A DNA stretch of 64,000 bases, from positions 310,001 to 374,000 of the forward strand of contig NZ_JAJNDA010000005.1 in the NCBI RefSeq assembly GCF_021026295.1. The letters are read 5' to 3'. The position numbers and the translations under genes were made by a program. The DNA is from Actinomycetospora soli. GTDB taxonomy: Bacteria; Actinomycetota; Actinomycetes; Mycobacteriales; Pseudonocardiaceae. Numbering within the stretch: position 1 is the first letter of the stretch; each line of letters opens with the position of its first letter. Below are positions 1,323-52,821 of this stretch, piece by piece. The notes under the pieces are model-generated. The model ran no database searches and was not told the DNA's origin. It saw only the letters and a program-made list of their open reading frames with translations.

Positions 1323-3406
<2,084 letters not shown>

Positions 3407-12329: not shown

Positions 12330-12360
12330 GGGGCGCGGGATGCGCCCATCACCTCCGTGC

Positions 12361-12522: not shown

Positions 12523-12567
12523 CGAGAAAGGTGGAACCGGTCGCCGGCCGGCGCAGTCCGAGCTGAT

Positions 12568-13443: not shown

Positions 13444-13450
13444 GAGGCCC

Positions 13451-13920: not shown

Positions 13921-13941
13921 GAGAAACCGACGGCGGACGAG

Positions 13942-37292: not shown

Positions 37293-37399
37293 GTGTCTCC
37301 TCAGCGTGTCGGCGTGCACCCAAGCGGGTGGTGTCGGCGTGTCGTTCGGCGTGTCCCGTCCCGAGACACTTGCGTTCCGGTGTGTCGGCTTGCGGTGTC
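37293..37399. repeat. GTGTC-rich stretch between uvrC and the MarR gene
   Basis: In 107 bp GTGTC occurs seven times (37293, 37306, 37331, 37339, 37351, 37382, 37395) and GACAC once (37365), often within GTGTCGGCGTG. The spacing is irregular. It lies upstream of uvrC and against the MarR stop. Confidence 0.5.
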
Positions 37400-37958
37400 A
37401 GCGCCCTCCGTCCGCCCGTTCCCGGTGCTCCAGCCACCGGCGGTGGCGGGTCTGCCGGCACCGCTCGACGGCCTGCTCCTGCACCGACCGCATCACCACC
37501 CCGGTGACCTGGACCAGCGCGTGGAGCGTCGCCACCCGACCGGCCGGGGTCAGCCCGGCGGCGAGGTCGGCGAGGTCGTGCCGGAGGGTCGCCCGGGCGT
37601 GGCGCAGCGCGGCCACCGTGTGGTCGGGGAGGTCGACCAGCCAGCCCCGGGCGTCGTCGGGGTCCACGTAGCGACCCACGCGGTCGGCGGCCACCAGGCG
37701 GTCGACGGCCCGGGCGGTGGCGGCGTGGCTCAACGCGCAGCGCCCCGCGAGCGCGGCGATCGACAGCGGCGCGACGCCCCGGAGCACCTCGAGGATCGTC
37801 AGCTCCGTCGGATCGAGCCCGAGCCGTGCGGCGTCGGCCCGGTGCAGCTGCACGACCGTCGGGACCAGTTGGTCGAGGACCGACAGCGCGAACTCGAGAT
37901 TCTCCGCCTCCAGCTCGGCGCCCCACGGCGGTCTCGGCGGTGGGTGTTCCTCGGACAC
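37398..37958 (-). CDS. MarR-family transcriptional regulator
   Basis: 186 aa from a GTG at 37958; start not certain, no clear ribosome site. Winged helix at about 60-125: LDPTELTILEVLRGVAPLSI, then LAGRCALSHAATARAVDRLVAA, and the wing with DPDDARGWLVDL. Helices before and after form the dimer. Target unknown; no divergent partner gene, since the upstream region is occupied by repeat array B. Confidence 0.85.
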   Translation of the reverse strand: MSEEHPPPRPPWGAELEAENLEFALSVLDQLVPTVVQLHRADAARLGLDPTELTILEVLRGVAPLSIAALAGRCALSHAATARAVDRLVAADRVGRYVDPDDARGWLVDLPDHTVAALRHARATLRHDLADLAAGLTPAGRVATLHALVQVTGVVMRSVQEQAVERCRQTRHRRWLEHRERADGGR

Positions 37959-38017
37959 GGACAGGACGCCAGGTCGTTCCGCGTCCTGGTGGGGGCGGTT
38001 CGGGAGATCGCGACGCT

Positions 38018-38348
38018 GCTGCGCGTCGTGCACATGGTGGGGCGCCCGGGGCGAGGAGGTCCTTCGAGTTCTGCGCGCCGCGCACACAACTCGGGGAGCG
38101 TGACGACGACGTCGGCTGCCCGACGCGCATGATCGCAACGTCGTGAGCGTGTCGCATCAGGGCTTGCGCGCGTCGCTCTCGAACTCGTGATCATGGTCGA
38201 GCCGAGTTCGGCGTCGGGCCGGGTGGGTTGTGTGCGGGGCGCGCGGGTGTCCCGGGGGCTCGGTGCCGGGCCGGGTGGGTTGTGTGCGGGGCGCGCGGGT
38301 GTCGGGTGGACTCGGTGCCGGACCGGGCCGGTTGTGCGCGGGGCGCGC
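38018..38348. repeat. Repeat array B of the 52-bp phased family
   Basis: Inverted-orientation cores TGTGTGCGnnnCGCGC start at 38229, 38281 and 38333, exactly 52 bp apart. One perfect forward core GCGCGnnGCGCACACA is at 38073-38088, 156 bp (3 x 52) before the first inverted one, and a degraded forward copy is at 38018. The array occupies the 426-bp gap between the MarR start and the PIG-L stop, which contains no credible gene. Confidence 0.85.
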
Positions 38349-38363
38349 AGCGCGGACCCGTGC

Positions 38364-38383
38364 CGACCCGGCGTCGGGAACGG
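38364..38383. terminator. Palindromic motif just 3' of the PIG-L gene
   Basis: CGACCCGGCGTCGGGAACGG, with one mismatch in the CCCG(A/G)CGTCGGG palindrome, ends 2 nt before the PIG-L stop codon region. Near-copies at 7045-7063 and 26828-26846. Confidence 0.35.
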
Positions 38384-38384
38384 G

Positions 38385-39110
38385 CTACTTGGTGTCGAGG
38401 ACGAGGAAGCCCTCGGCGTAGCGACGCTCCTCGGGCGGCGTGCCGTCGGTGCACCAGCCCGCGGCCTTGGCCTGGGAGTAGCCCCACATCTGCATGCGCT
38501 CGGCGAGGTCGGTCATGTGGGCGGTCTGCGACTCGTGGGCGCGGAGGGCCTCGATCTTGCGCTCGAGGGTGTCGGTGATGTCGACGTAGAGGTCGGCGCC
38601 GTCGCCGGGGTTGGCGATCCACGTCTCCGGCACCGTCCACGCCTCGAGGCCCTCGTCGGCGAGGAGCTCGGGGTGGGCGAAGGGGTTGCGGGCGTCGGGG
38701 TAGATCGCGCACATGGCGGCCTCACCGGCGGCGATGTGGTCGGGGTGGCTGCCGTAGGTGCTGCGCAGGTTGCGGGTCGGCGAGGGCACGACGCACCGGT
38801 CGGGGCGGCGCTGCCGGATCACGCGCGAGAGGTCGCGGCGCAGGTCGTGGGTGACGTAGAGCCGACCGTCGGGGTAGCCGAGCCAGTCGATCTCGCCCAC
38901 GCCGTACACGTCGGCCGCGGCGCGCTGCTCCTTGCGGCGCAGCTCGGCCATCTCCACGCGGCCGACGGCCTCGTCGAACCCGCCCGCGTCGCCGTCGGTG
39001 ACGATGCAGTAGTCGACGGTGTCGCCCTCGGCGATCCACCGGGCGACGGAGCCGCCGCTGCCGAAGTCGATGTCGTCGGGGTGCGCGACGATCATGAGGA
39101 TACGAGCCAC
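38385..39110 (-). CDS. PIG-L/LmbE-family deacetylase
   Basis: About 241 aa. Zinc motif AHPDDIDFG near the N-terminus and SHPDHIAAGEAA further on identify the N-acetyl-hexosamine deacetylase family, which includes MshB and Mca of mycothiol metabolism; GDAGGFDEA is also typical. This is a shorter generic member, so the substrate is not assigned. I place the start at the GTG 39110 because a TAGAAC hexamer ends 7 nt before it; a GTG two codons upstream (39116) is the alternative. Confidence 0.9.
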   Translation of the reverse strand: MARILMIVAHPDDIDFGSGGSVARWIAEGDTVDYCIVTDGDAGGFDEAVGRVEMAELRRKEQRAAADVYGVGEIDWLGYPDGRLYVTHDLRRDLSRVIRQRRPDRCVVPSPTRNLRSTYGSHPDHIAAGEAAMCAIYPDARNPFAHPELLADEGLEAWTVPETWIANPGDGADLYVDITDTLERKIEALRAHESQTAHMTDLAERMQMWGYSQAKAAGWCTDGTPPEERRYAEGFLVLDTK

Positions 39111-39117
39111 GCGCACC

Positions 39118-39123
39118 GTTCTA
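39118..39123 (-). promoter_or_regulatory. Possible -10 of the PIG-L gene
   Basis: TAGAAC on the minus strand, 7 nt before GTG 39110 and 6 nt after the SWIM-gene stop. The last base departs from TAnnnT. Confidence 0.35.
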
Positions 39124-39128
39124 CCGGC

Positions 39129-39971
39129 TCAGGCGCCGAGACGCCGGTAGAGGGGGCGCAGCGCCTCCCGGGCATCGACGCCGTCGACGGTCACGCCGAG
39201 CGGCGGCATCTGGTCGAGCAGCTCCTCGGAGTTGCCCGACGCGGGCCCGCCGACGTCGGGCAACGGGCCGCCGGCGGTCCAGAACCGGTCGACGACCTCG
39301 GCGAGCGGGGTGACGGCGGGACCGGTGTCGTCGCGGCGGTCGCGGATTCCCGCGAGCAGCGTCGCCCTGTCCCGGCCGCGCCAGCGCAGGATGAGGAACG
39401 GGTCCTCGTCGAACCGCTCCGCCACCAGGTACGCCACCGCCGCGAGGTGCTTGCACGGCACCGACCAGTCGGGGCAGGAGCAGTCCATCGGCATCTCGCG
39501 GGCCCCCGTCGGGAAGAGCGAGAGACCGACGCGGCCGAAGACCTCCTCGAGGTCGTCGGGCACGGTGCCGCCGAGCAGCGAGGCGGCGTACCAGGAGTCG
39601 GCGGCGAACGCGTTCTCGACGGCGTCCCAGGCCTCGTCGGCGAAGGTGGTGATGCCGATCCGCGCGCGGTACGGCTCGGCCCGCGACCCCTGCACCGTCG
39701 CGACGACCTCCCCCGGCTCGATCGCCAGGTCGATCACTTGCCCGGCGCGCGCGTAGGTCTTCCCGCGGTCGAGCCGGCCGCCGACGCCGAGCTTCTCCAG
39801 GACGGCGAGGAACCGGCCCGACCACCAGGACGCCCCGATCGCCCCGCGACGGCTCTTCGCGGCGATGCCGTCCTCGACGGCGATCCGCTTGCCGTACTCG
39901 GCGAAGGTCGCGGGACCCGGCTCGGGGAACTTCTCGCGGAACGGCTCCTTCGGGCGGCGCCTAGGCGGCAT
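39129..39971 (-). CDS. SWIM zinc-finger protein, partner of the SNF2 helicase
   Basis: 280 aa. SWIM motif MDCSCPDWSVPCKHLAAV (about 164-181) gives the C-x-C-xn-C-x-H zinc site. The N-terminal WWSGRFLAVLEKLG and the region VIDLAIEPGEVVATVQGS are the usual companions. The ATG overlaps the helicase stop by 11 nt. SWIM proteins beside SNF2 helicases are common in actinobacteria and are presumed to act together on DNA; the exact role is unknown. Confidence 0.92.
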   Translation of the reverse strand: MPPRRRPKEPFREKFPEPGPATFAEYGKRIAVEDGIAAKSRRGAIGASWWSGRFLAVLEKLGVGGRLDRGKTYARAGQVIDLAIEPGEVVATVQGSRAEPYRARIGITTFADEAWDAVENAFAADSWYAASLLGGTVPDDLEEVFGRVGLSLFPTGAREMPMDCSCPDWSVPCKHLAAVAYLVAERFDEDPFLILRWRGRDRATLLAGIRDRRDDTGPAVTPLAEVVDRFWTAGGPLPDVGGPASGNSEELLDQMPPLGVTVDGVDAREALRPLYRRLGA

Positions 39972-42900
39972 CGTCGTCGTCCAGTTCGTCGTCGTCGTCG
40001 TCGCCGCCGTCGTCGCCGCCGTCGTCGGTGGCCCCCGGGTCGAGGGCGACCACGCGGCGCAGCTCGTCGGTGGACAGGCCCGTGAGCCAGTCCGGGTCGT
40101 CCCCGCCCTCGCCGATCACCTGGCCGGCGAGGGTGCGCTTGCCCTCGATGAGGTCGTCGATCCGCTCCTCGACGGTGCCGCCGCAGACCAGCTTGCGGAC
40201 CTGGACGGTGCGCTTCTGCCCGATCCGGAACGCGCGGTCGGTCGCCTGGTCCTCGACGGCGGGGTTCCACCAACGGTCGAGGTGGATCACGTGCTGTGCG
40301 GCGGTGAGGGTGAGCCCGGTGCCGCCGGCCTTCAGCGAGAGCAGGAACAGCGGCGGGCCGCCGTCGGACTGGAACGCCTCGACCATGCGGTCGCGGGCCC
40401 TGCGCGAGGTCCCGCCGTGCAGCCACAGCACCTCGACGCCGAAGCGACGGGCCAGGTAGGGCGCGAGCGCGTCGCCGAACTCGGTGAACTGCGTGAAGAG
40501 CAGGGCCTTCTCCCCCGCGGCCAGGATCTCGGCGACGATCTCCTCGACCCGCGCGAGCTTGCCCGAGCGCCGGGCGAGCGGGGACCCGTCGTGGAGCAGC
40601 AGCGCGGGGTGGTCGCAGACCTGCTTGAGCTTCGTCAGCGCCGCGAGCACCTTGCCGCGCCGCTCGATGCCCTCGCGGCCCGCCGTCTCCAGCCCGGAGA
40701 GCGTCTCGGTCATCTCGTCGACGACCACCTGGTACAGCGAGGCCTGCTCCGCGGTGAGGCTGCAGCGCTCGACGGTCTCGATCTTGTCGGGGAGGTCGTC
40801 GACGACGGTGCGGTCGGTCTTGACCCGGCGCAGCAGGAACGGGCGGACGGCGGTCTGCAGACGGCGTGCGACGTCCTCGCGGCCGTGCCGCTCGATCGGT
40901 ACGGCGTAGCGGTCGCGGAACGCGGTGACGGTGCCGAGCAGGCCGGGGTTGACCGCGTCCATGATCGACCACAGCTCGGCGAGGCGGTTCTCCACGGGCG
41001 TGCCGGTGAGGGCGAGGCGGTGCCCGGCGTCGATGGTGCGGACCGCCCGGGCCGCCCGGGAGCGGTTGTTCTTCACCAGCTGCGCCTCGTCGAGGACGAG
41101 CCGGTGGTAGCGGTGGCGGGACAGCTCGGCCACGTCGCGGGTCAGCGTGCCGTAGGAGGTCACGACGAGGTCGGCGGCCGCGAGCGTCGCCGTGAGGTCG
41201 CCCGTCGCCCGGCCCGCGCCGTGGTGCACGACGACGCGGAGCCCGGGCGTGAACCGCGCGGCCTCCCTCTGCCAGTTCCCGACGACGGACGTGGGCGCGA
41301 CGAGCAGCGTGGGAGACGTGGCGGGACGGAGCTCGGCCCCGGAGGTGGGCCGCTCCGGCCCGTCGTCGGGGCCGCCCCGCTCGTGGGCCTCGAGGGCGAG
41401 GACCTGGAGCGTCTTGCCCAGCCCCATGTCGTCGGCGAGCAGCCCGCCGACGCGCAGCCCGGCGAGGAACGCCAACCAGGAGACCCCGCGCCGCTGGTAG
41501 GGCCGCAGGGTCGCCTCGAGCGCCGGCGGGTCGTCGAGCAGTTCGAGGTGGGCGTCCGCCGCGCCGGAGAGCAGCGCGCCCAACGAGCCGGCCGCCGTGA
41601 CGTCCTCGACGGGCAGCGGCGCGGCCCACTCGGGCGGCAGGTCGTCGTGGTAGGCCGAGTGCAGCGCGAGGACGTCGCCGACCGTGCCCTCGCCCGGAGC
41701 GCGGTCGAGGAACTCCAGACCGGCCCGCAGCCGCTCGGCGTCCACGGCCACCCAGCGGCCGCGCAGGAACACCAGCGGCGCCTTCGCGTGGACCAACGCG
41801 CGCATCTCGTCGTCGGAGAGCGGGTCGCCGTCGACGGCGAGCTTCCAGGAGAACTCGACCAGCTCCTCCTTGCGCAGCCGCCCGCGCAGCGCCACGACGC
41901 CCTCGGGCCCGGCGCCGCCCGTGGCGTTCGCCGTGACGCCGAGCCGCGCGGGCTGCGACCACCAGCTGGGCAGCAGCACGCCGAAGCCGGCCCGGTCGAG
42001 CGGCGCGGCGACCCGGAGCAGGAAGTGGTGGGCGCCCTCCCGGTCGAGCTCCATCCCCGTCGGGCGCGGCACCCGCAGCGCCTCGGTCAGCTCCGGGTAG
42101 ATCGCGGCGGCGCGGCCGAGCTCGGCCAGCAGCATCTCGCTGGGGTCGTCGAGCCAGCGGCGCAGCGACCCGGCGTCGCGCCAGATCGACTCCGCGGTCA
42201 CTCGCAGGCTCGCGTCCTGCGCGGACTGCAGGGAGAACTCGAGCCAGAACCGGGGCTCGCCCTCGACCGCATGGCCCAGGTCGTCGACGACGATCTCGGT
42301 GAACCGGAAGGTCCCGCGGGCGGGGCCGGCGTGCGGGGCGCCGACGACCTCCCAGCGGGCGAGCCCGGGGTCCAGGTCGCCCTGTGCAGTGGCCGCGAGG
42401 AGGGCGGGCGCGGCGGGCTCGTCGCGGAGCCGGTGCCGGGCCTCGGCGTCGACCAGGGCGGTGAGCGCCTCGGTGACCAGTTCGGCGGGGTCGGGACCGA
42501 TCCCGTCGGCGACGGGTCGCCCGTCGACCGCCTCGGCCCGCACGGCCGGCGGCAGGGCCGCGGCGAACGCGTCGGCGGCGACCAGGTCGCGTCCCTGCAG
42601 CACGGGACGCCAGCCGAGCGGATCGTCGTGGTCGGGGTGCGGGGCGGGCAGGACCCGGCCGCGTGCGACGAGGTCGGCCGCGAGCCGCCCGAGGGCCCGC
42701 AGCACGGCGAACTCCCCGCCCTCCCCCGGCAGCGGCTCGGACCGCAGGAGGACGTCCGCGTCGAGCTCGAGGACCGGCACCGTCCACGGGGCGAGGGCGG
42801 CTGGGGTGTCGGAGCCGTCGGACGGGACGGGTTCGCGCGTCGCCCCGGCAGGACCGGCCGTCGACGGCAGGTGCAGGACCGCCTGCCCCTCCCCGCCGGC

Positions 42901-43071
42901 GGTGCCGAGCGCCGCCGCGACGGCCCGCAGCTGCTCGTGGTCGGCCGCGAACGGGTGCGGGCGGGCGCCGCGTGCCCGGCTCCGCGTCGACCCGCCCGCG
43001 CGGCGCGCCGGGTCCTCGGCCCAGAGGCAGAGCCCCCGGCCGGGCGACCACGCGGCGTGCAGCGCGAGCAT
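39961..43071 (-). CDS. SNF2-family DEAD/DEAH ATPase (HelZ-like)
   Basis: 1036 aa. The N-terminal ~450 residues are the SNF2-associated domain. Helicase motifs follow: DDMGLGKTLQVLAL (I), VAPTSVVGNWQ (Ia), VLDEAQLVKN (II), LTGTPVENRL (III), and C-terminal LKAGGTGLTL and RAFRIGQKR (V, VI). DNA translocase of RapA/HelZ type. The C-terminus is a run of Asp and Glu residues. The ATG has no ribosome site; a TAAGTC hexamer overlapping the Rieske stop lies 7 nt upstream. Confidence 0.95.
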   Translation of the reverse strand: MLALHAAWSPGRGLCLWAEDPARRAGGSTRSRARGARPHPFAADHEQLRAVAAALGTAGGEGQAVLHLPSTAGPAGATREPVPSDGSDTPAALAPWTVPVLELDADVLLRSEPLPGEGGEFAVLRALGRLAADLVARGRVLPAPHPDHDDPLGWRPVLQGRDLVAADAFAAALPPAVRAEAVDGRPVADGIGPDPAELVTEALTALVDAEARHRLRDEPAAPALLAATAQGDLDPGLARWEVVGAPHAGPARGTFRFTEIVVDDLGHAVEGEPRFWLEFSLQSAQDASLRVTAESIWRDAGSLRRWLDDPSEMLLAELGRAAAIYPELTEALRVPRPTGMELDREGAHHFLLRVAAPLDRAGFGVLLPSWWSQPARLGVTANATGGAGPEGVVALRGRLRKEELVEFSWKLAVDGDPLSDDEMRALVHAKAPLVFLRGRWVAVDAERLRAGLEFLDRAPGEGTVGDVLALHSAYHDDLPPEWAAPLPVEDVTAAGSLGALLSGAADAHLELLDDPPALEATLRPYQRRGVSWLAFLAGLRVGGLLADDMGLGKTLQVLALEAHERGGPDDGPERPTSGAELRPATSPTLLVAPTSVVGNWQREAARFTPGLRVVVHHGAGRATGDLTATLAAADLVVTSYGTLTRDVAELSRHRYHRLVLDEAQLVKNNRSRAARAVRTIDAGHRLALTGTPVENRLAELWSIMDAVNPGLLGTVTAFRDRYAVPIERHGREDVARRLQTAVRPFLLRRVKTDRTVVDDLPDKIETVERCSLTAEQASLYQVVVDEMTETLSGLETAGREGIERRGKVLAALTKLKQVCDHPALLLHDGSPLARRSGKLARVEEIVAEILAAGEKALLFTQFTEFGDALAPYLARRFGVEVLWLHGGTSRRARDRMVEAFQSDGGPPLFLLSLKAGGTGLTLTAAQHVIHLDRWWNPAVEDQATDRAFRIGQKRTVQVRKLVCGGTVEERIDDLIEGKRTLAGQVIGEGGDDPDWLTGLSTDELRRVVALDPGATDDGGDDGGDDDDDELDDDDAA

Positions 43072-43078
43072 CTCGGGA

Positions 43079-43084
43079 GACTTA
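43079..43084 (-). promoter_or_regulatory. Possible -10 overlapping the Rieske stop codon
   Basis: TAAGTC on the minus strand begins with the TAA stop of the Rieske gene and ends 7 nt before the helicase ATG. Confidence 0.4.
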
Positions 43085-43552
43085 CGCGAACTGCACCTGC
43101 CCGTTCACGACGGTCGTCGCGACGGGGGTGAGCCCACTCTCCGCCGGGCCCTTCTTGAGGGCGCCCGACGTGGCGTCGAACTGGCTGCCGTGGTTCGGGC
43201 AGGTGATGGTGCCGCCCTCGGGCGGGTCGACCGGGGTGCCCTGGTGCGGGCACGCGGCGTCGAAGGCCTTGATGACGCCGGCCTGGGGCTGGGTGAGCAC
43301 GACCGGCCCGTTCGGCCCCTCCACGACGACGCCGCCGCCGACCGGGACCGCGGAGACCGGGGTGCCGCCCGCGGGCGGGGCGGTGGTGGCGCCGCCGGTC
43401 GCCCCGCTGCCGCCGCCGGCGGGTGCCGTGCTCTCGCCGCCCGACGAGCAGGCGGCGAGGGCGGCGGGTGCGGCGAGGGCGACGACGAGGCCGCACAGGG
43501 CGCGACGGCGGGTCAGGCCGCCCGGGGTCGCAGGCGTGTTCTCGAGGGTCAC
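43082..43552 (-). CDS. Tat-exported Rieske [2Fe-2S] lipoprotein
   Basis: 156 aa from the GTG at 43552, preceded by GGAGG inside the palindrome GGAGGCCTCC; longer frames upstream are not credible. N-terminus: RRR at 15-17, a hydrophobic stretch, and a lipobox LAAC (Cys35), so a Tat signal plus lipid anchor. A Gly/Ala/Thr/Pro linker (36-75) leads to the Rieske fold with CPHQG (Cys101, His103) and CPNHG (Cys118, His121). It resembles small Rieske proteins of unknown redox partner; no cytochrome or oxygenase gene is adjacent. Confidence 0.92.
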   Translation of the reverse strand: MTLENTPATPGGLTRRRALCGLVVALAAPAALAACSSGGESTAPAGGGSGATGGATTAPPAGGTPVSAVPVGGGVVVEGPNGPVVLTQPQAGVIKAFDAACPHQGTPVDPPEGGTITCPNHGSQFDATSGALKKGPAESGLTPVATTVVNGQVQFA

Positions 43553-43616
43553 GGGCGGAGGCCTCCGTCGGGGTCGCGGTGGTGGTCGCGGCTGGTCGTC
43601 GAACCTACTCGGGGCG

Positions 43617-44309
43617 TCACTCGGGCAGGGCGAGCAGCCCGGCGACGACGTCGTCCAGGCTCTCCGCCACGACGTGCGGCCGGAGTACGGCGTCGGGGAC
43701 CCGGCCCTCGAGCCGCTCGCAGTAGCCGCCGAGGAGCCCGGCCGCCTGGGCACCGTGGACGTCCCAGGAGTGCACCGCGACCAGGGCCGTCCGGCCCGGC
43801 TCACCGCCCACGCGCTGCACCGCGAAGTCGTACACCCGCCGCGGCGGCTTGAACGAGGCGATCTCCTCGCAGGAGAAGACGTCGTCGAGCAGGTCGCGCA
43901 CGCCGGCGTTCTCCAGGGCCGCGCTCGCCGTGGCGGCCGAGCCGTGCGTGAAGCCGTAGGCGGCCACGCCGGCGTCGCGGAGCAGCGTGAACGCGGCGCG
44001 GACGTCGTCGTGGACGGGCAGTTCGCGGAAGCCGTCGAGGACCGAGGCGACCTGGTCGTCGTCGAGGTCGCGTCCGCTGGTGCGTCGGAGCATGTCGGTG
44101 GCGACCGTCCGGAACGGCGGCGCCTCGCCCGCGAGCGTCATCGCCATGCCCTGGTGCAGCAGCCGGGCGAAGAACAGCTCCAGCTCGTGACCCGGGCGGC
44201 CCAGGGCGACGAACCGCGGCCGCAGGCCCTCCAGCTGCAGGCAGGTCTCGAAGAGGTCGAACAGCACGACCTTCGGACGGCGGGCGGGCGCGGGCTGCGG
44301 GGCGGTCAC
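43617..44309 (-). CDS. HAD-superfamily hydrolase, haloacid dehalogenase-like
   Basis: 230 aa from a GTG. Motif I FDLFETCL (nucleophile Asp18), motif II Thr/Ser in FTHGSA, motif III Lys in SFKPPRRVY, and motif IV Asp in HSWDVHGA. The cap lies between I and II. The pattern is that of the type II haloacid dehalogenase subfamily, though whether the substrate is a haloacid or a phosphate ester cannot be told. Repeat array C begins 87 nt upstream. Confidence 0.88.
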   Translation of the reverse strand: MTAPQPAPARRPKVVLFDLFETCLQLEGLRPRFVALGRPGHELELFFARLLHQGMAMTLAGEAPPFRTVATDMLRRTSGRDLDDDQVASVLDGFRELPVHDDVRAAFTLLRDAGVAAYGFTHGSAATASAALENAGVRDLLDDVFSCEEIASFKPPRRVYDFAVQRVGGEPGRTALVAVHSWDVHGAQAAGLLGGYCERLEGRVPDAVLRPHVVAESLDDVVAGLLALPE

Positions 44310-44395
44310 GGGCGCCCATCGTGCCGGGTGTGCCGTAGCTCGGCGCGTTCAGTCGGGATCGGCTCGGGTCGCCGGGTGCTCGGTGCGGCCGGCTC

Positions 44396-44780
44396 GCGCG
44401 CGGCGCACACATTCGGTTGGGAGGGACGTTCGTGGTCCGGGATCTCTGCGCGTGGCGCACACAGTCGGCCGGGAGGGACGTTCGTGGTCGGGGACTTCTG
44501 CGCGTGGCGCACACAGTCGGCCGGGAGAGACGTCCGTCGTCCGGCACTTCTGCGCGTGGCGCACATATTCAGGCGGGTCGGGCGTCCGCGTGGAAGAACC
44601 TGCGCGTCGCGCACACGCTCCGCGTGGAGGGACGCTCGTCGTCGAGGGACCCCCGCGCCACACTCGGTCCGGCAGATAGCCCGTCGGGCCGCATCGAGGT
44701 CCCCCCCGGCGTTGTGTGCGGGACGCGCGGGGTTCAGTAGACGGGTGCCGTGGTCCCGCGGATGTGTGTGCGGGACGCGC
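44396..44780. repeat. Repeat array C of the 52-bp phased family
   Basis: Forward cores GCGCGnnGCGCACACA start at 44396, 44448, 44500, 44552 and 44602 (spacing 52, 52, 52, 50). Inverted cores TGTGTGCGnnnCGCGC start at 44713 and 44765 (52 apart); the last ends 6 nt from the pyrD stop. Between cores the first four units are also similar (GGGAGGGACGTTCGTGGTC). The 476-bp gap between HAD and pyrD holds nothing else. Confidence 0.93.
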
Positions 44781-44785
44781 GGAGG

Positions 44786-45811
44786 TCAGGTCGACAGCGG
44801 GCGTGCGAGCTCGGTGTTGACCCGCGCGGGCCAGGCGGGCCCGCCGTAGACGAACCCGGTGTAGGACTGCACCAGCGTGGCGCCGGCGTCGAGGCGACGG
44901 CGGGCCTCGGCGGCATCGGCGATGCCGCCGACGGAGACGATCGTCAACCGGCCGCCCACCCGCGCGACGAGGCGCGCGAGGATCGCGCGGGCGGGCTCGA
45001 CGAGCGGGGCGCCGGACAGGCCGCCGGTGCCCGCGGCGTCCACGACGGCGGGGTCGGAGCGCAGCCCGGACCGCGCGACCGTCGTGTTGGTGGCGACGAT
45101 CCCGTCCAGGCCCGCGGTCACCGCGAGGTCCGCGACCGCGTCGACCCCGTCGTCGTCGAGATCGGCCGTGATCTTGACGAGCAGCGGCGTCGCGCCGATC
45201 TCCTCGCGCACCGCCGCGAGCAGCGGCTCGAGGGCGTCGACGCCCTGGAGGTCGCGCAGGCCGGGGGTGTTCGGGGAGGACACGTTGACGACGACGTAGT
45301 CGGCGTACGGACCGAGGGCACGCGCGGAGTACCGGTAGTCGGCGACGGTCTGCTCGGGCCCCGTGGCGGCCTTCGACTTGCCGATGTTGACGCCGAGCAC
45401 GGTGCCGAGCGGCCCGCCGTCGCGCAGCTGCGCCAGCCGCTCGGCGACGGCGTCCGCACCGGCGTTGTTGAAGCCCATGCGGTTGACCAGCGCGCGGTCG
45501 TCGGGCAGGCGGAACAGGCGGGGCCGGGGGTTGCCGGGCTGCGGCCGGGCGGTGACGGTGCCGATCTCGACGGCGCCGAACCCGAGTCGGGCGAGCCCGC
45601 GGATGCCCTCGGCGTCCTTGTCGTAGCCCGCGGCGACCCCGAGCGGCGACGGGAACGTCAGGCCCATCGCGGTGACCGCGAGCGACGGGTCCGGGGTGCG
45701 CTCCGGGATCACCGGCGTGGCCGCGGCGAGGGCGCGGATCCCGATGCGGTGGGTCCGCTCGGCCGGCACGCGCACCGCGACGTGCCGGAAGAGCGACTCG
45801 TACAGCGTCAC
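44786..45811 (-). CDS. pyrD: Dihydroorotate dehydrogenase, quinone-dependent (class 2)
   Basis: 341 aa from a GTG overlapping the PH-domain gene by 4 nt. Class 2 features: hydrophobic N-terminal helix region for membrane quinone, AAGYDKDAEG and NRMGFNNAGAD, the catalytic serine in NVSSPNTPGLRDLQ, KITADL and SVGGIADA contacting FMN, and YTGFVYGGP. It oxidises dihydroorotate to orotate; pyrF and carAB are in the same window but a different operon. Coupled to riboflavin genes that supply its FMN. Confidence 0.97.
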   Translation of the reverse strand: MTLYESLFRHVAVRVPAERTHRIGIRALAAATPVIPERTPDPSLAVTAMGLTFPSPLGVAAGYDKDAEGIRGLARLGFGAVEIGTVTARPQPGNPRPRLFRLPDDRALVNRMGFNNAGADAVAERLAQLRDGGPLGTVLGVNIGKSKAATGPEQTVADYRYSARALGPYADYVVVNVSSPNTPGLRDLQGVDALEPLLAAVREEIGATPLLVKITADLDDDGVDAVADLAVTAGLDGIVATNTTVARSGLRSDPAVVDAAGTGGLSGAPLVEPARAILARLVARVGGRLTIVSVGGIADAAEARRRLDAGATLVQSYTGFVYGGPAWPARVNTELARPLST

Positions 45812-46290
45812 CGGGCGTACGTCGCGTGCAGGTCCCGCAAACCCTTCACGGCCTCGACGGCGTGGAGCTTGTCCACGGCCTGGATCGCGGAGACGACCAG
45901 GTACTCGTCGTCGGGCAGGTCGATCCGGGCGAACTGGGCGCCGTCGGGGAAGCTGATGCCGACCACGTCGGCCCACGCGACGCGTCGCGTGAGGATCGTC
46001 GCGCGGACCTCCACCCCGCCGGCGCCCGCGCGCAGCCGGGGCCGGGTGAACAGCAGCGCGCAGCCCGCGAGGATCAGCCCGAGGACGACCATGGCGACCT
46101 GGTCGGCGGGCCGGAAGTTGAAGCCCGCCGACTCGACGTACACCAGCAGCGCGCCGCCGGCGAAGAACGCGAACAGCAGGATCGCGACGACCCAGGCGAC
46201 CCACCGGATGCGCCGCGGCCGGATCTCCAGCTCGACCGGGCCGAGGTCCAGACCCTCGGGCGGGACGACGACCGGGGAGTCGGCGCTCAT
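45808..46290 (-). CDS. PH-domain membrane protein
   Basis: 160 aa. Two hydrophobic segments (about 30-53 and 63-82) precede a bacterial PH-like domain ([20 protein letters not shown], then [20 protein letters not shown]). Homologues sit directly after ribH in mycobacteria as well. Function unknown. Joined by 4-nt overlaps to ribH and pyrD on either side. Confidence 0.88.
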
Positions 46291-46793
46291 CGCGCGAACC
46301 CGACGGGCGCGCGGTGCGTCCCGTCGCGCAACTGCTTGAGGGTGATCGCGGCGTCGAGGGCGGCCACGACCGCCTCGAACCCCTTGTCCTCCGTCGACTG
46401 CGGGGTCCCGGCGCGCTCCCAGGCCTGGTCGAGGTTCTCCGTCGTGAGCACCCCGTTGCCGACCGGCGTGCGCTCGTCGAGCCCGACGCGCAGCAGCCCC
46501 GCCGTCACGGCGTCGCAGACGTAGTCGAAGTGCGGCGTCGCGCCGCGGATCACCACGCCGAGCCCGACGACCGCGTCGTGCCCGGCCGCGAGGCCCTGGC
46601 AGACGACGGGCAGCTCCATCGCGCCCGCCACCCGCACCACCGTCGGGTGCTCGACGTTGCCGCGCTCGGCCGCGAGCAGCGCCCGCTCGAGCATCGTCTC
46701 GACGATCTCGGCGTTCCACCGGGTCGCCGCGATCCCCAGGCGCAGGCCCGTGGCGTCCGGCACCGCGATGTCGGGGCGTCCCTGCGTGCTCAT
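46287..46793 (-). CDS. ribH: 6,7-dimethyl-8-ribityllumazine synthase
   Basis: 168 aa. [11 protein letters not shown] near the N-terminus, [11 protein letters not shown], and [20 protein letters not shown] with the catalytic His are the family landmarks. Condenses the pyrimidine and butanone phosphate precursors; ribE then makes riboflavin. 4-nt overlaps on both sides. Confidence 0.97.
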
Positions 46794-48055
46794 GCGCCGG
46801 ACTCGCTGCTCGCCAGGCCGGCCTCGTAGACGTCGAGGCCCTGGAGGTCGTGCCCCATGCGGTCCCGCTTGGTGCGCAGGTAGTGCAGGTTCTCCGGGGT
46901 CGCGCGCAGCGGCAGGGCGACGCGGTCGAGGATCGTCAGGCCGTAGCCCTCGAGCCCCGCGCGCTTCTCCGGGTTGTTCGTCAGCAGGCGCATGCTCCTG
47001 ATGCCGAGGTCGGCGAGGATCTGGGCACCGGTGCCGTAGTCCCGCGCGTCGGCGGGCATGCCGAGCGCGAGGTTCGCGTCGACGGTGTCGGCCCCGGCGT
47101 CCTGCAGCTGGTAGGCCTGCAGCTTGTGGATCAGGCCGATCCCCCGGCCCTCGTGGCCGCGCACGTAGAGCACCACCCCGCGGCCCTCGGCGGCGACGGC
47201 GGCCATCGCGGCGTCGAGCTGCGGGCCGCAGTCGCAGCGGCGGGAACCGAGGACGTCGCCGGTGAGGCACTCGGAGTGCACGCGGACCAGGACGTCCTCG
47301 CCGTCGCCGAGGTCGCCGTAGACCAGGGCGAGGTGCTCGATGCCGTCGAGCAGCGAGTCGTACCCGTAGGCCTCGAACTCGCCGTGGACGGTCGGGAGGT
47401 GCGCGTGGGCGACCTGTGCGACCTGCTTCTCCGACCGGCGCCGGTAGGCGATCAGGTCCTTGATGGTGATGAGCGCGAGGTCGTGCTCGTCGGCGAACAC
47501 CGCGAGCTCCTCGTAGCGCGCCATCTCGCCGTCGTCCTTCTGCGAGACGATCTCGCAGATCGCGCCGGCGGGCTCCAGCCCGGCGAGGCGGGCGAGGTCG
47601 ACGGCGGCCTCGGTGTGCCCGGGGCGGCGCAGGACGCCGCCGTCGCGGGCCCGCAGCGGGACGACGTGCCCGGGGCGGGAGAGGTCGGTGGCCGCCGACG
47701 CCGGGTTGGCGAGGACCTGGATGGTCCGGGCACGGTCGGCGCCGGAGATGCCGGTGCCGATGCCCTCGCGGGCGTCGACGGACACCGTGTAGGCGGTGCC
47801 GTGCCGGTCCTGGTTGATGGAGTGCGCGGGCGGCAGGTCGAGGCGGTCGCACGCCTCGCCGGTCAGCGGCACGCAGATGTAGCCCGAGGTGTAGCGCACC
47901 ATGAAGGAGACGAGCTCCGGCGTCGCCTTCTCGGCGGCGAAGATCAGGTCGCCCTCGTTCTCGCGGTCCTCGTCGTCGACCACGACGACGGCCTTGCCCG
48001 CGGCGATGTCCTCGATGGCCCGCTCGATGTGCTCGAAGCCGTCCACGTGGTTCAT
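46790..48055 (-). CDS. ribBA: Bifunctional DHBP synthase / GTP cyclohydrolase II
   Basis: 421 aa. N-terminal DHBP synthase half (1 to about 205) with [19 protein letters not shown] and [11 protein letters not shown]-terminal GTP cyclohydrolase II with [19 protein letters not shown] (zinc cysteines) and [12 protein letters not shown]. It supplies both riboflavin precursors. ATG overlapping ribE. Confidence 0.98.
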
Positions 48056-48696
48056 GCTCCCGACTCCGTTCCCGCCGGCTGCTGCACGGACCCCGTGCCG
48101 AGCAGCCGTTCGACGTACTTGGCCACCACGTCGACCTCCAGGTTCACGGTCGCGCCGACCTCGCGCGACCCGAGGGTGGTCTCGGCGAGCGTGGTGGGGA
48201 TCAGCCCGACGGCGAACCCGTCGTCGTCCACCTCGGTCACGGTGAGGCTCACGCCGTCCACGGCGATCGAGCCCTTCTCGACGATGTAGCGCGCGATCCC
48301 GACGCTCCCGTCTGCCGCGCGCGGGGTGCGGAAGCGCACCGCGGTCCAGTGCTCGGACGGTTCGACGGCCGCGACCGTGGCCGTGCCGTCGACGTGGCCC
48401 TGCACGATGTGCCCGCCGAGCCGGGCGCCCGCCGCCAGGGCACGCTCCAGGTTCACCGGGGTTCCGGCGGCCGCGCCCGCGAGGCTCGAGCGGCGCAGGG
48501 TCTCGCCCATGACGTCGACGGCGAACGACTCCGGCTCCGGGTCGACCACCGTCAGGCACACGCCGTTGACCGCGATCGAGTCGCCGGGCCGGGCGTCGGA
48601 GACCACCAGCGGGCCGCGGATGCGCAGCCGGGCGGCGTCCGCCTGCGGGGTGACGTCGACGATCTCGCCGACCTCCTCCACGATCCCCGTGAACAC
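48052..48696 (-). CDS. ribE: Riboflavin synthase alpha chain
   Basis: 214 aa from the GTG at 48696 ([11 protein letters not shown] follows). Two lumazine-binding repeats: NGVCLTVVD with [12 protein letters not shown], and [10 protein letters not shown] with [12 protein letters not shown]. First gene of ribE-ribBA-ribH-PH-pyrD. The 122-bp upstream gap shows no FMN riboswitch. ribD is not between rpe and ribE, unlike the mycobacterial arrangement. Confidence 0.96.
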
Positions 48697-48818
48697 TCCT
48701 GGCTCCCCTGCCCCGTCGTCCGGTCGTCGCTCGCGTGAACGATCGACGCTGCCTGCATCATCCTCGCGCGGCCGTCGCTCACCGGGTCCCTTCCCGGTGA
48801 CAACCGCCACTGCTCAGG

Positions 48819-49508
48819 TTACTCGCGAGTAGACCGTGAACGGTGCGGGGAGACCGCCGCGGCCTGCTCGCGCAGCGCCGCGACCGCCCGCGCCGGGTCG
48901 TCCGCGCCGTAGACCGCGCTGCCCGCGACGAAGCAGTCGACCCCGGCCTCGGCGGCCTGCTCCACGGTGTCCGCGCTGATCCCGCCGTCGATCTCGACGA
49001 GCACCCGCAGGTGCCCGGTGTCGACCAGCCGCCGCGCCGTGCGGACCTTGTCCAGCACCTCGGGCATGAAGCTCTGCCCGCCGAAGCCGGGCTCCACGCT
49101 CATGACGAGCAGCGTGTCGTAGTCGGCGAGGACCTCGATCCAGTCCTCGAGCGGCGTCCTCGGCTTGATGGAGAGCCCGGCGAGGGCGCCGGCGGCGCGG
49201 AGGTCCTTCGCGAGCTTGCGCGGGTCGTGCGCGGCCTCGGCGTGCACGGTGACGTTGTGGGCCCCGGCCTCCGCGTAGGGCGGCGCCCAGCGGTCCGGGT
49301 CCTCGATCATCAGGTGGCAGTCCAGCGGGATGTCGGTGGCCCGCAGCAGGCTCTCCACCACCGGCAGGCCGAGCGTCAGGTTGGGCACGAAGTGCGCGTC
49401 CATGACGTCGACGTGTAGCCAGTCGGAGCCGTGCACCGCCGCGGCCTCGTCGGCGAGCCGGGCGAAGTCCGCGGACAGGATGCTGGGTGCGATGAGCGGG
49501 GCGGGCAC
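48819..49508 (-). CDS. rpe: Ribulose-phosphate 3-epimerase
   Basis: 229 aa from the GTG at 49508; a GTG six codons upstream (49526) is possible. [41 protein letters not shown] and EIDGGI give the metal and phosphate sites of the TIM barrel. Links the pentose phosphate pathway; lies 24 nt after rsmB. Confidence 0.96.
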
Positions 49509-49532
49509 GGCCCCAGTCTCCCGCACCCCTGA

Positions 49533-50996
49533 TCAGCCGCTGCGCCGCAGGGTCGCGCAGTACATGGCGTCGGTCCCGTGCCGGTGCGGCCACAGCTGCA
49601 GGCCTGGCCCCGTCCCGACGTCGGACCCGGTCAGCTCGGGCAGGGCGGCGGCGGTGTCGAGCACCTCGGCGCCGGTCGCCGCCGCGACGGCCCGGACGAC
49701 GTCGACCGTCTCCTCCGGGTGCGGCGAGCAGGTCGCGTAGGTGACCACCCCGCCGGGCCGCACCCGCTCCAGGGCGTGGGTGAGCAGGTCGCGCTGCAGC
49801 GCCGTCAGGTCGACGACGTCCTCGGGCCGGCGGCGCCAGCGGGCCTCCGGACGGCGGCGCAACGCCCCCAGCCCGGTGCACGGTGCGTCGACGAGGACGC
49901 GGTCGTAGGCCGCCTCGGGCAGCGCGATCTCGCGGGCGTCGCCGGTGTGCACGCGCACGGGCAGGCCGGCGGTGGCCTTCTCGACGAGGGCCGCGCGGTG
50001 CGGGGCGCGGTCGACGGCGTCGAGGGTGGCGCCGGAGATCGCGGCGAGCGCACCGAGCAGGGCGGCCTTGCCGCCGGGGCCCGCGCACAGGTCGAGCCAG
50101 AGCTCGTCGCGGCCCTCGAGCGGGGCACGGGCGGCGGCGAGCGCGACCAGCTGGCTGCCCTCGTCCTGCACCGCGGCGAGGCCCTCGCGGACCGGCTCGA
50201 GGTCGCCGGGGTCGCCGCCCTCGGTGAGCAGCACCCCGTAGGGCGAGTACGGCGCCTCCTCGCCCCCGGTGATCGCAGCCAGTTCCTCGGCGCTGATCTC
50301 GCCCGGGCGCGCCGCGAGGTGGACCGCGGGCCGGGCGTCGTCGGCCGCGAGCGCCGCGTCGAGCTCGGACTCCGGCAGGACCGCCGCGAAGACCTCGGCG
50401 ATCCAGCGCGGGTGGGCGTGCACGAACGCGAGGTGCCCGACCGGGTCGGTCCCCGCGTCCGGCGCGAGCTCGGCGACCCACCCGGCCTCGTCGCGCTCCG
50501 CCACCTTGCGCAGCACCGCGTTGACGAAGCCGGTCGGCTTCGAGCCCGCCCGCGAGCGCACGAGCTCCACCGTGGCGCCCACCGCGGCGTGTGCGGGGAT
50601 GCGGGTGCGCAGCAGCTGCTGGGCTCCGAGGCGCAGGGCGTCGAGGACGACGCCGTCGAGCCGGTCGAGGGGTCGGTCGACGCACGCGGAGAGCACGGCG
50701 TCGAGCAGGCCCTGCGCCCGGCACGCGCCGTAGGCGAGGTCGGTGGCCAGGGCGGCGTCGCGGCCGGAGACGCGGCGCTCGCGCAGCAGTCGCGGCAGCG
50801 TCAGGTTGGCGTAGGCGTCGTCCTCGCGGACGGCCCGCAGGGTGTCGAGGGCGGCCTCGCGGGCGGCGTCGCCCTGCGGCGGACGGTTCGGCCCGGAGCG
50901 GCCGCGCGGCGGGCCCGACCGGTGCGGTCGGTCGGGCTTGCGGCGCGGTCCCTTGCCGGAGCGGTGGCCGCCGGGCGGGACGGAGCTGTCGGTCAT
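49533..50996 (-). CDS. rsmB: 16S rRNA m5C967 methyltransferase RsmB
   Basis: 487 aa. A basic, disordered N-terminus of about 45 residues, a NusB-like RNA-binding domain (to about 190), then a Rossmann methyltransferase with [12 protein letters not shown] (motif I), [15 protein letters not shown] (motif IV cysteine) and [10 protein letters not shown] (motif VI catalytic cysteine). ATG overlaps fmt by 4 nt. Confidence 0.95.
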
Positions 50997-51934
50997 CCGG
51001 TTCCCGTCGTCTCGAACCGCTCCCCCGCCGTCGGCTGGACGCCGCGGCTCCAGTCGACCGCGGGCATCATCGGCTTGCCGGCCGGCTGCACGCTGCCCAG
51101 CACGACGGGCGCCGCGGCCGTCCCGACGAGGACCCGCCTGCGCTCCACGACGATCTCCCCCGGGGCCAGGTCGTCGAAGCCCGTCGTCGTGACCGGGCCC
51201 AGCTTGAGCCGGGTACCGCGGAACTCGGTCCACGCCCCCGGGGCCGGCGTGACCGACCGGACGTGCCGGTCGATCGCGAGCGGCGGGTCGGTCCAGCGGA
51301 CCCGGGCGTCGTCGACGGTGACCTTCGGGGCGACCGAGACGCCCTCGGCGGGCTGCGGCACGGGCTGCAGGGAGCCGTCGGCGATCCCGTCGAGGGTCGC
51401 CGCGAGCAGGCCCGCCCCGCTGTGGCTGAGCCGCTCGAGCAGCGCGCCTGCGGTGTCGTCGTCGGCGATCTTCTCGGTGACGGTCCCGAACACCGGGCCG
51501 GTGTCCATGCCCTCCTCGAGCCGGAACGTGCTGGCGCCGGTGATCTCGTCCCCGGCGCGGATCGCGGCCTGCACCGGCGCGGCCCCGCGCCACGCGGGCA
51601 GCAGGGAGAAGTGGAGGTTGACCCAGCCGTGGGCCGGGATCGCGAGGGCCGCCGGACGCAGCAGGTTCCCGTAGGCGACGACGGGACAGCAGTCCGGTGC
51701 GATCGCCGTGAGGCGCGCGAGGAACTCGGGGTCCGACGCCTTCGCCGGGGTCAGCACCTCGACCCCGGCCTCGTCGGCCAGCAGGCCCACCGGGGAGCGC
51801 TGCAGCCGGCGCTTCCGCCCGGCGGGCGCGTCGGGGCGGGTGACCACGGCGACGACCTCGTGCGCGGTGCCCTCCAGCAGGCGGCGCAGCGAGGGTACGG
51901 CGGGGTCCGGGGTGCCGGCGAAGACGAGCCGCAT
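50993..51934 (-). CDS. fmt: Methionyl-tRNA formyltransferase
   Basis: 313 aa. [38 protein letters not shown] (catalytic Asn and His) and [10 protein letters not shown] are the expected motifs. Adds the formyl group that Def, encoded immediately upstream with no gap, later removes. Def-fmt-rsmB form one unit. Confidence 0.97.
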
Positions 51935-52516
51935 CTAGCGGACGCCCCCGAACAGCGGGTTGACCTTCTGCGACGGGTCGGCCACGTGCGGGTTCTGCTT
52001 GATGCGCGGCGGCGCCGTGGGGTCGAACCACTCGGCCTGGCGGATCGCCGCCATCGCCTCCTTGCGGGTCGCCGCGTCCAGCCGGTCGAGGAAGAGCACC
52101 CCGTCGAGGTGGTCGGTCTCGTGCTGGATGGCGCGGGCCAGCATGGCCGTGCCCTCGACCCGCAGCGGCTCGCCGTGCATGTCCCAGCCGGTCGCGACCA
52201 CGTGGTCGTACCGCGTGCAGTCCCAGCGGAAGCCCGGGATGGACAGGCAGCCCTCGGGGCCGGTCTGCTCGGTGTCGTCGAGGACGTTCCAGGTCGGGTT
52301 GACCAGGTGGCCGTGCATGTCCTCGCCGGCGCGGTAGGTGAACACGCGCAGCCCCACGCCGATCTGCGGCGCCGCGAGACCGGCCCCGCCCTGCTCCCGC
52401 ATCGTCTCGTCGAGGTCGGCGACGAGCTGGCGCAGCTCCTTGTCGAACGTGGTCACCTCGGCGGCGCGCTCCCGCAGGACGGGATCCCCGAAGTAGCGGA
52501 CGGGCTGGACGGTCAC
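51935..52516 (-). CDS. def: Peptide deformylase
   Basis: 193 aa from the GTG at 52516. All three metal-site motifs are present: GGAGLAAPQIG, EGCLSIPG (Cys) and QHETDHLDG (two His, catalytic Glu). A perfect TAGACT hexamer lies 8 nt before the GTG and no Shine-Dalgarno is seen, so the message is probably leaderless. Repeat array D begins 33 nt upstream. Confidence 0.97.
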   Translation of the reverse strand: MTVQPVRYFGDPVLRERAAEVTTFDKELRQLVADLDETMREQGGAGLAAPQIGVGLRVFTYRAGEDMHGHLVNPTWNVLDDTEQTGPEGCLSIPGFRWDCTRYDHVVATGWDMHGEPLRVEGTAMLARAIQHETDHLDGVLFLDRLDAATRKEAMAAIRQAEWFDPTAPPRIKQNPHVADPSQKVNPLFGGVR

Positions 52517-52524
52517 GGTCGTCC

Positions 52525-52530
52525 AGTCTA
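52525..52530 (-). promoter_or_regulatory. Probable -10 of leaderless def
   Basis: TAGACT on the minus strand, full TAnnnT match, 8 nt before the def GTG. It stands 20 bp from the first core of repeat array D. Confidence 0.5.
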
Positions 52531-52549
52531 GGCGCGTGCCCGATCCGGC

Positions 52550-52821
52550 CGAGTCGGCGCACACCCCTCGCCCGCGCCGCGCGGGGCGCACACACTCCGG
52601 CGGCTGTGGCGCAGGGCTTCACGAGAACCTACGCGAGGCGCACACACCGTGCCGGCGCGCGCACAGCGCCTCGGGGAACCTGCGCGTGGCGCACACACCG
52701 CGGCGACCGCACGGCGCCACGACGAGCCCCCGCACTCCGCACGTATCCGGGGATGTGTGCTTGGCGCGCTGGTTTCTCGGGACCCGGGTCGTGGGGCGTC
52801 GGATCTGTGTGCGTGGCGCGT
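52550..52821. repeat. Repeat array D of the 52-bp phased family
   Basis: Forward cores GCGCGnnGCGCACACA at 52579, 52631 and 52682 (spacing 52, 51), degraded forward copies at 52550 and 52652, and inverted cores TGTGTGCGnnnCGCGC at 52754 and 52806 (52 apart). Flanks include AGGTTCTCG on the minus strand after two cores, shared with arrays A and C. The 410-bp gap between def and priA holds no credible gene. Confidence 0.9.

Follow-up and report, generated by a model that had tools for sequence, protein, structure and literature searches.

The intergenic repeat arrays considered here lie in a 64,000-nucleotide stretch of the Actinomycetospora soli genome (RefSeq assembly GCF_021026295.1, contig NZ_JAJNDA010000005.1, positions 310,001 to 374,000 of the forward strand), referred to below as the window, and the systems closest to them are found among several described types of bacterial repeat. 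Mycobacterial interspersed repetitive units and variable-number tandem repeats (MIRU/VNTR) are one-directional repeats of related units of about 50-100 bp that occupy intergenic positions at many loci, and the arrays of clustered regularly interspaced short palindromic repeats (CRISPR) consist of a repeat conserved within the array and spacers of fixed length. For the remaining systems the comparison draws on excerpts of the published accounts, and the statements made about them hold for what these excerpts cover. Repetitive extragenic palindromic (REP) sequences and bacterial interspersed mosaic elements (BIMEs) have been described in enterobacteria and Stenotrophomonas; gyrase binding is stated for BIME-2 elements, and a role in Rho-dependent termination for REPs (PMC2817692). 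The REPs of BIMEs alternate in orientation, the segments between REPs vary in length in Stenotrophomonas, and the GTAG and CGTC REPs possess stems of 5-13 bp and tagged ends (PMC2817692, PMC3733652). Neisserial intergenic mosaic elements (NIMEs) comprise the 20-bp dRS3 repeat, ATTCCC-N8-GGGAAT, and RS segments of 30-160 bp, forming arrays of 200-2700 bp (PMC3898611). In pneumococci, BOX, RUP, SPRITE and insertion sequence (IS) elements are enriched between convergent genes and are read as tolerated parasites, with BOX consisting of boxA and boxC ends around tandem boxB copies and folding as RNA (PMC3049150).

The system described here is a real, clade-restricted repeat system with unusual rules. 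Across seven species its motif is the dyad GCG-NNN-CGCACAC, the units form two arms that both point to the centre of the array, the core-to-core distance (pitch) is characteristic of the species, and arrays of differing class stand at shared sites, preferentially near the 3' ends of genes. An initial annotation of the window had described a family of 16-bp cores with a spacing of 52 bp in three arrays, B, C and D, and all 16 cores and their spacings were recovered; with up to two mismatches the window holds 16 matches, compared with a shuffle mean of 5.91 and a maximum of 13, and none of 100 shuffles reached 16. The excess and the spacing also extend beyond the window, as that annotation had required: the host genome (6.52 Mb in 69 contigs, with the window on contig 55) contains 68 cores with at most one mismatch at about 15 sites, against 6 for a reversed control, and 27 core pairs 47-53 bp apart, against none; the 52-bp spacing is genome-wide in the host species. 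The family is intergenic as proposed, with 2 of 530 cores overlapping a predicted gene. To the initial annotation these results add the inward arm order, the distribution of the family in the genus and the different pitches found in relatives.

Two classes of unit can be distinguished. Class I was characterized from 273 units in 51 clusters of four genomes, detected by a position weight matrix (PWM) of the core; in three of these species, named below, the set covers only places with an exact 52-bp pair, and only clusters with at least two PWM hits and a best score that was not weak were counted. Class II was drawn from places among the matches listed, with later G017 places such as C22:944279 and two more in G005 (C1:1260909 and 2444348) left out. 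Together the sets comprise 96 clusters, in which arrays L066, L160, L173 and L177, whose arms are far apart, are counted as two clusters each. The class I unit reads GANNCC-TGCGCG-NNN-CGCACACA-CTCCGGC followed by a spacer, with a conserved block from about -9 to +18, and the class II core reads GCGTTGCG-NNN-CGCACACGGCCGG. Each core is composed of two half-sites, GCG-NNN-CGC, with unlike outer parts: the outward half is CCTGCGCG in class I and GCGTTGCG in class II, and the inward half is CGCACACACTCC or CGCACACGGCCGG. In class I, C at -1 (0.93) faces A at +9 (0.99), leaving a 3-bp stem, and class II has T-A there; the GCG-NNN-CGC dyad is kept. The central NNN is itself constrained, its first base being almost never A, its second nearly always C or G and its third almost never T, and this alphabet is reverse-complement-symmetric in both classes. 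The cores are, as claimed initially, better conserved than the spacers, a difference that is partly ascertained since the units were found through their cores.

The order of the arms is highly regular. In none of the 51 class I clusters does a + core lie to the right of a - core, both arms are present in 43, and the CACACA ends point to the centre; in class II, both arms occur in 37 of 45 clusters and the inward order is kept in 33 of these. Each of the four exceptions contains a single discordant call at a distance of 53 or 55 bp (pitch plus 5) from the adjacent core, and we read this call as a near-palindromic core assigned to the wrong strand. Exactly midway between the arms, 5 of the 25 two-armed clusters of G017 and 1 of 4 in G005 carry a central core of two outward halves, GCGTTGCG-NNN-CGCAACGC; the innermost arm dyads of such arrays are separated by 96 bp, and in G017 the chain keeps a single 48-bp phase across the centre. 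In one G017 array, at L160 3005-3244, the + and - arms enclose a predicted gene of about 80 codons.

The pitch is 52 bp in the four class I species and 50, 49 or 48 bp in others. Within class I arms, 151 of 179 pairs are spaced at exactly 52 bp and 165 at 51-53 bp, and the dominant values are 48 bp in G017 (128/144 pairs), 50 bp in G006 (13/17) and 49 bp in G005 (6/10). The pitch persists where the spacers are unrelated (identity below 0.4; the between-array mean is 0.35): 58 of 73 such class I pairs are at exactly 52 bp and 66 at 51-53 bp, 25 of 30 G017 pairs are at exactly 48 bp, and the small sets of G006 and G005 give 3/5 at 50 bp and 2/5 at 49 bp. This suggests that the length is selected or measured, because neutral drift after tandem duplication would be expected to bring insertions and deletions as well. 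The proposal that copies expanded as a unit fits some arms, neighbouring spacers sharing 80% identity or more in 39 of 179 class I pairs, but leaves arms with unrelated spacers at exact pitch unexplained. The suggestion that 52 bp represents five helical turns, placing all cores on one face of the DNA, is not borne out by the relatives, which use 50, 49 and 48 bp, several at the same chromosomal site. At 10.5 bp per turn, 52, 50, 49 and 48 bp correspond to 4.95, 4.76, 4.67 and 4.57 turns, a series that departs from the whole-turn pitch of a cooperative array in helical phase, and therefore the cores need not share one face of B-DNA. Of the cooperative binding proposed initially, protein binding remains consistent with the arrays, and helical phasing as its reason does not.

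By the patterns searched, the repeat is confined to a part of one genus. The exact 52-bp pair was found in 38 stretches of a genome collection, of which 35 belong to Actinomycetospora chiangmaiensis DSM 45062, A. sp. NBRC 106378 and A. sp. TBRC 11914. The other three (Victivallales, Streptomyces, Chloroflexota) show short tandem or scattered similar motifs, with no inverted arms in the parts read, and were left out of all counts; that of Streptomyces sp. KL109B (L077 2039-2142) has two tandem 52-bp units starting with ATGTGTGCGCTGCGCCGGGG and a partial third, with no inverted arm seen. A generalised pattern, GCGNNNCGCACAC twice at a distance of 40-60 bp, occurs in 10 of 390 family genomes, seven of which are among the 18 Actinomycetospora genomes (G000 with 30 pairs, G002 23, G005 5, G006 17, G009 50, G013 38 and G017 129), and its reversed control gives 2 pairs in all 390. 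The three family matches outside the genus appear unrelated, G059 and G071 having one hit each and G180 a 24-bp tandem repeat. In a sample of 397 genomes of the order, 318 of them from other families, nine match (control, 1): G000, G005 and seven with 1-6 hits, which read as short tandem repeats or lone pairs. The comparison with related Pseudonocardiaceae called for initially thus recovers the family in Actinomycetospora relatives and dispersed arrays in 0 of 372 family genomes outside the genus, absence in family and order being judged from one exact pattern.

Class II was first traced as a variant array with a 47-48-bp period in G005, at an acyl-CoA dehydrogenase / alpha/beta hydrolase site, and a full 48-bp array in G017 surfaced through a hairpin search. 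The two classes are almost mutually exclusive among species. A class II 17-mer has 182 copies in G017, 13 in G005, 7 in G006 and 1 in G016, and the remaining 14 genus genomes, the four of class I among them, lack it (the control gives 2 across all 18); conversely, G005, G006 and G017 contain no class I pairs. At L193, about 3217-3330 (G006 C17:276217-276329), class I-like cores stand at 50-bp spacing in this otherwise class II genome; they were not called as a cluster and may represent an intermediate.

Many arrays occupy orthologous sites across species, and at these sites class and pitch may differ. Both flanks of array C in the window are orthologous to those of L180 in G017, with a pitch of 52 against 48 bp and a different class, and one site with both flanks orthologous carries four pitches, namely 52 (L032, L043, L062), 48 (L175), 49 (L196) and 50 bp (L192); further shared sites of this kind exist. 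In a midpoint-rooted tree of the acyl-CoA dehydrogenase protein alone from 16 of the 18 genomes (G004 and G010, with the gene in pieces, left out), one branch (100/100) separates the seven carriers from nine non-carriers, and the pitches interleave among the carriers: 50 groups with 52 (87/88), 48 is also placed among them, and 49 lies among the 52s (88/95). In all nine non-carriers from which the whole dehydrogenase gene was recovered, this site has the gene directly abutting its neighbour, which is the hydrolase in the six whose sequence was inspected. Two carriers have no array there, G017 having another neighbour gene and G006 a short palindrome, a perfect 19-bp inverted repeat GTGCGTGTGTTTCCGTGCC (L086 3145-3184) where several other carriers have the array. 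A proposal that spacers turn over between species faster than neutrally was dropped, as the fourfold sites of the flanking genes are only 0.55-0.82 identical.

The gene context was evaluated with genes predicted by a small custom codon-usage script, and six of the 96 clusters, having no predicted flank on one side or both, were left out. Of the remaining 90 clusters, 35 are flanked by convergent, 48 by co-directional and 7 by divergent genes, the corresponding numbers for 217 ordinary gaps in these loci, each 50 bp or longer, being 13, 114 and 90; with orthologous arrays counted as independent, the Fisher p values are 8e-12 for the convergent excess and 1e-9 for the divergent deficit. Single genome sets lean the same way: the three larger ones give convergent p values of 0.0058 to 5e-05, G006 gives 0.029 and G005 0.023, and the divergent p values range from 2.6e-05 to 0.086. 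Measured from the outermost core, the median distance is 46 bp to a stop codon (n = 123) and 105 bp to a start codon (n = 63), and in the sense of gene 3' ends the term 'operon boundary' used initially is appropriate.

Cores and spacers differ in how they are shared. Within class I arms, 0.50 of 361 pairs have the same NNN, as do 0.45 of the 141 whose spacers are unrelated, against 0.083 between the arms of one array and 0.095 between arrays (2000 permutations: mean 0.098, maximum 0.177); in G017 the values are 0.52 within arms (0.41 with unrelated spacers), 0.04 between arms and 0.10 between arrays. Because the NNN is common within arms even where spacers are unrelated, the core is homogenised within the arm separately from the spacer, and short conversion between neighbouring cores is the simplest cause, although it does not amount to a secure mechanism. 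A target-site duplication, with the NNN flanking each unit, was considered and rejected: at spacer identity below 0.4, adjacent and non-adjacent units share the NNN alike (0.44 against 0.47), and a same-top-strand comparison between arms is weak, with 86 and 377 of 2000 permutations reaching the observed value. Spacers match at 0.8 or above within their own array in 94 of 139 cases in G017 and 78 of 170 in class I, and in other arrays in 5 of 142 and 13 of 176, 12 of these 13 being orthologous or from one copied array; spacer exchange between arrays was rejected on account of so few close matches. A weak consensus nevertheless spans arrays (mean best match 0.69 in G017 and 0.68 in class I, against 0.56 shuffled), and spacers carry a class-specific consensus at both ends. 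One array exists twice in NBRC 106378 (L050 2631-2905 and L052 5554-5828), within a 276-bp segmental copy that includes a neighbouring gene end; its array part looks more alike than its coding part, and conversion between the copies may have occurred.

Folding was assessed by a 70-nucleotide fold score, with z below -2 taken as low. Only 3 of 25 arms, sampled from 49, reach this value, as do 11 of 49 array centres, 12 of 40 ordinary 3'-end gaps (of 58) and 3 of 40 divergent gaps (sampled of 58). As neither centres nor arms fold better than ordinary 3'-end gaps, any function of the arrays would be assigned to the arms as DNA. One or another of several recurrent hairpins is frequent in array centres, yet a central hairpin was rejected as a defining part because the one family searched also stands alone and folding is no stronger in the centres than in gaps of the ordinary 3' kind. 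In Rfam, 17 array loci yield only two tRNAs, both at L055 and outside the array, and a known RNA family in the arrays was thereby set aside. A dispersed palindrome, CATGATC...GCGACACGCGCAAG...GATCATG, is found at L036, L040, L066, L111, L112, L118, L121 and L123, with a similar sequence at window 38128-38195; its exact pattern has five hits in the host genome, three of them in array centres and none in array B. Among the 18 genus genomes the pattern occurs in seven, though perhaps only by chance in G013, and it also stands alone, for example near a tRNA-like sequence in G017.

The chief point to be explained is that pitch and flank vary together, genome-wide, at conserved sites. Intergenic repeats are often taken as non-autonomous transposons; here the places are kept, pitch and flank differ by species, and spacers drift, so that either a fast-evolving DNA-binding protein or a copying enzyme would impose a length ruler on the genome. 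We tentatively favour, at somewhat less than an even chance, arrays of dyad sites bound between genes by a putative trans-acting protein, most likely forming a two-sided boundary at gene ends; this protein-bound boundary leads among the explanations, and a non-autonomous repeat is a close second. The putative protein would read the cores as double-stranded DNA, and the species pitch of 48, 49, 50 or 52 bp would correspond to the span of a single protein-DNA module within a chain, with both arms pointing to the centre and, in five 48-bp arrays, an apparently unbroken chain running through the central core of two outward halves. The complex between gene ends might then stop or insulate transcription, or supercoils, arriving from either side, and a shift in protein specificity or geometry within a lineage would be followed by arrays genome-wide, a direction of change between classes and pitches that we infer. 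Gene-end boundaries of this type would terminate or insulate in a manner different from that of hairpin and Rho terminators. Several observations weigh against a protein-bound boundary. The binding protein is postulated, with no gene tied to array presence or class; central dyads occur in 0 of 43 class I and 0 of 4 G006 clusters; centres are no stronger in folding than ordinary 3'-end gaps and lend no support to termination; and divergent genes flank 7 of 90 clusters, two of these depending on short, weakly scored gene models (L045, L052). A polar terminator would need no two arms between co-directional genes, yet both are usually there, and the class switch is unclean, G006 holding a 50-bp pair with class I-like flanks (C17:276219). 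Local copying or conversion of cores is indicated by the arm-specific NNN (0.45 within arms where spacers are unrelated, against 0.08 between arms), and binding by a protein would not by itself lead one to expect this. The convergent enrichment does not prove function, because pneumococcal repeats show it and are, in the excerpted account, read as tolerated parasites (PMC3049150), and it would equally mark a parasite of that kind here. A regulator encoded beside divergent arrays was also considered as the binder and rejected, as the families of the flanking proteins, of which 10 of 14 were scanned, vary by site and give no consistent candidate, a LuxR-type and a GntR-type regulator appearing once each.

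Nearly as credible is a non-autonomous intergenic repeat without host function, comparable to BIMEs, NIMEs and BOX, whose units a recombinase, a transposase or replication slippage would copy or shuffle via the cores; such arrays would survive behind genes as harmless there, and their pitch would be fixed by a copying enzyme cutting core to core. The unit duplication noted above, the homogenised NNN, the weak consensus across arrays, the convergent enrichment typical of pneumococcal repeats (PMC3049150, as excerpted) and the array at the dehydrogenase site, where the gene abuts its neighbour in 9/9 non-carriers, all agree with it, and a genome-wide replacement of class suits a spreading family. 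However, the few close matches between arrays indicate that units do not visibly travel, the sole copied array found is a 276-bp segment including a gene end rather than a bounded element, and sites common to species despite differing class and pitch favour conserved position over random insertion. A Y1 transposase of REP-associated tyrosine transposase (RAYT) type, PF01797, was detected in none of the 18 genus genomes, of which 15 have a completeness of 90% or more, while 5 of 14 control genomes were positive, and a RAYT/REP origin was rejected accordingly. An element acting at the RNA level, with the arms transcribed as 3' untranslated regions that present repeated Rho-loading (C-rich, CACACACUCC) or decay signals alike from either side, is improbable: both arms do offer the same strand to transcription entering from outside, the outermost core is close to stop codons, and the class I inward half is C-rich and G-poor, but the arms show no excess RNA structure and no Rfam match, the NNN constraint is dyad-symmetric as for DNA, the class II inward half, CACACGGCCGG, has lost the G-poverty, and seven arrays lie between divergent genes. 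Constant pitch with unrelated spacers and arm-specific repeats is the pattern expected if fixed-length spacers were inserted with duplication of a short repeat, as in CRISPR acquisition; the class-specific consensus at both spacer ends, the many near-duplicate spacers within an array, the inversion of the arms about a centre and the many arrays per genome make this highly improbable.

On the most far-reaching reading, the arrays might represent a new class of chromosomal element, inward two-armed dyad chains with the pitch set by a lineage-specific molecular ruler and forming the boundary system of one fast-evolving protein, a view that we regard as rather unlikely. On this view the arrays would keep their fixed places at gene ends while flank class and ruler length changed together genome-wide, following a logic like that of rapidly co-evolving centromere or hotspot DNA.

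In the window, array B consists of a + arm with a single core (38073..38088, hence no spacing within the arm), the long palindromic hairpin CATGATC...GATCATG at 38128..38195, which is not a defining part, and a - arm (38229..38348) with cores at 38229, 38281 and 38333, spaced 52 and 52 bp apart. According to gene models and Pfam, it is flanked by a MarR-family regulator gene (37398..38033, - strand), whose start faces the array, and a PIG-L family deacetylase gene (38385..39095, - strand), whose stop faces it; the latter flank, inferred from clusters, is common to the 48-bp array L180 in G017 and the 49-50-bp array L193 in G006. Array C has a + arm (44396..44617) with cores at 44396, 44448, 44500, 44552 and 44602 (spacings 52, 52, 52 and 50 bp) and a - arm (44713..44780) with cores at 44713 and 44765 (52 bp), between genes for a HAD-type hydrolase (43617..44309, - strand; gene model, Pfam) and a quinone-dependent dihydroorotate dehydrogenase (44786..45811, - strand), the stop of which is 5 bp off the outermost core. 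Array D has a + arm (52579..52697) with cores at 52579, 52631 and 52682 (52 and 51 bp) and a - arm (52754..52821) with cores at 52754 and 52806 (52 bp), between genes modelled, with Pfam, as peptide deformylase (51935..52564, - strand) and PriA, primosomal protein N' (52927..55065, - strand). Rfam gives no match in the window above gathering score. Elsewhere in the window, a 99-bp unit is present seven times in two clusters (12360-12563 and 13450-13959), with one copy every 102-105 bp within a cluster; the hairpin-like unit, CGCGAGTGG...CAGGCAGGTTC...CCTGC...TGGTGTGCCAGTCG, resembles by eye the hairpin in the centres of arrays L032, L043, L054 and L062.

Compared with known systems, the arrays share with MIRU/VNTR the character of actinobacterial intergenic tandem repeats at many loci, but MIRU/VNTR are not known to have inward arms or unrelated spacers. 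With CRISPR they share a conserved repeat and fixed-length spacers; here, instead, the arms are inverted, the arrays are many, and the spacers show an end consensus and near-duplicates. The initial annotation knew of no actinobacterial repeat of this form, and, judged by titles and the beginnings of abstracts, no description of these arrays was found in the open-access literature, which leaves absence from print unproven. Like BOX, the arrays are intergenic, with variable copies of a tandem module and convergent-gene enrichment, and the excerpted BOX description sets them apart through their inverted arms and the lack of excess arm folding, neither inverted arms nor a species pitch being described for BOX in that excerpt (PMC3049150). 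NIMEs, built of dRS3 and RS, resemble them in short dyad repeats, variable segments and intergenic arrays, but the dRS3 core is not matched by the consensus here, and a single pitch or inward arms are not described for NIMEs in the excerpted account (PMC3898611). REP/BIME sequences, to the extent covered by the excerpts, are similar in their short palindromic cores, intergenic position, clustering and sometimes unrelated inter-core segments; the present arrays differ in having two inward arms, one pitch per species and, in class I, a dyad that leaves a 3-bp stem, and in place of the alternating orientation of BIMEs the + cores lie to the left of the - cores in 43/43 class I and 33/37 class II two-armed clusters.

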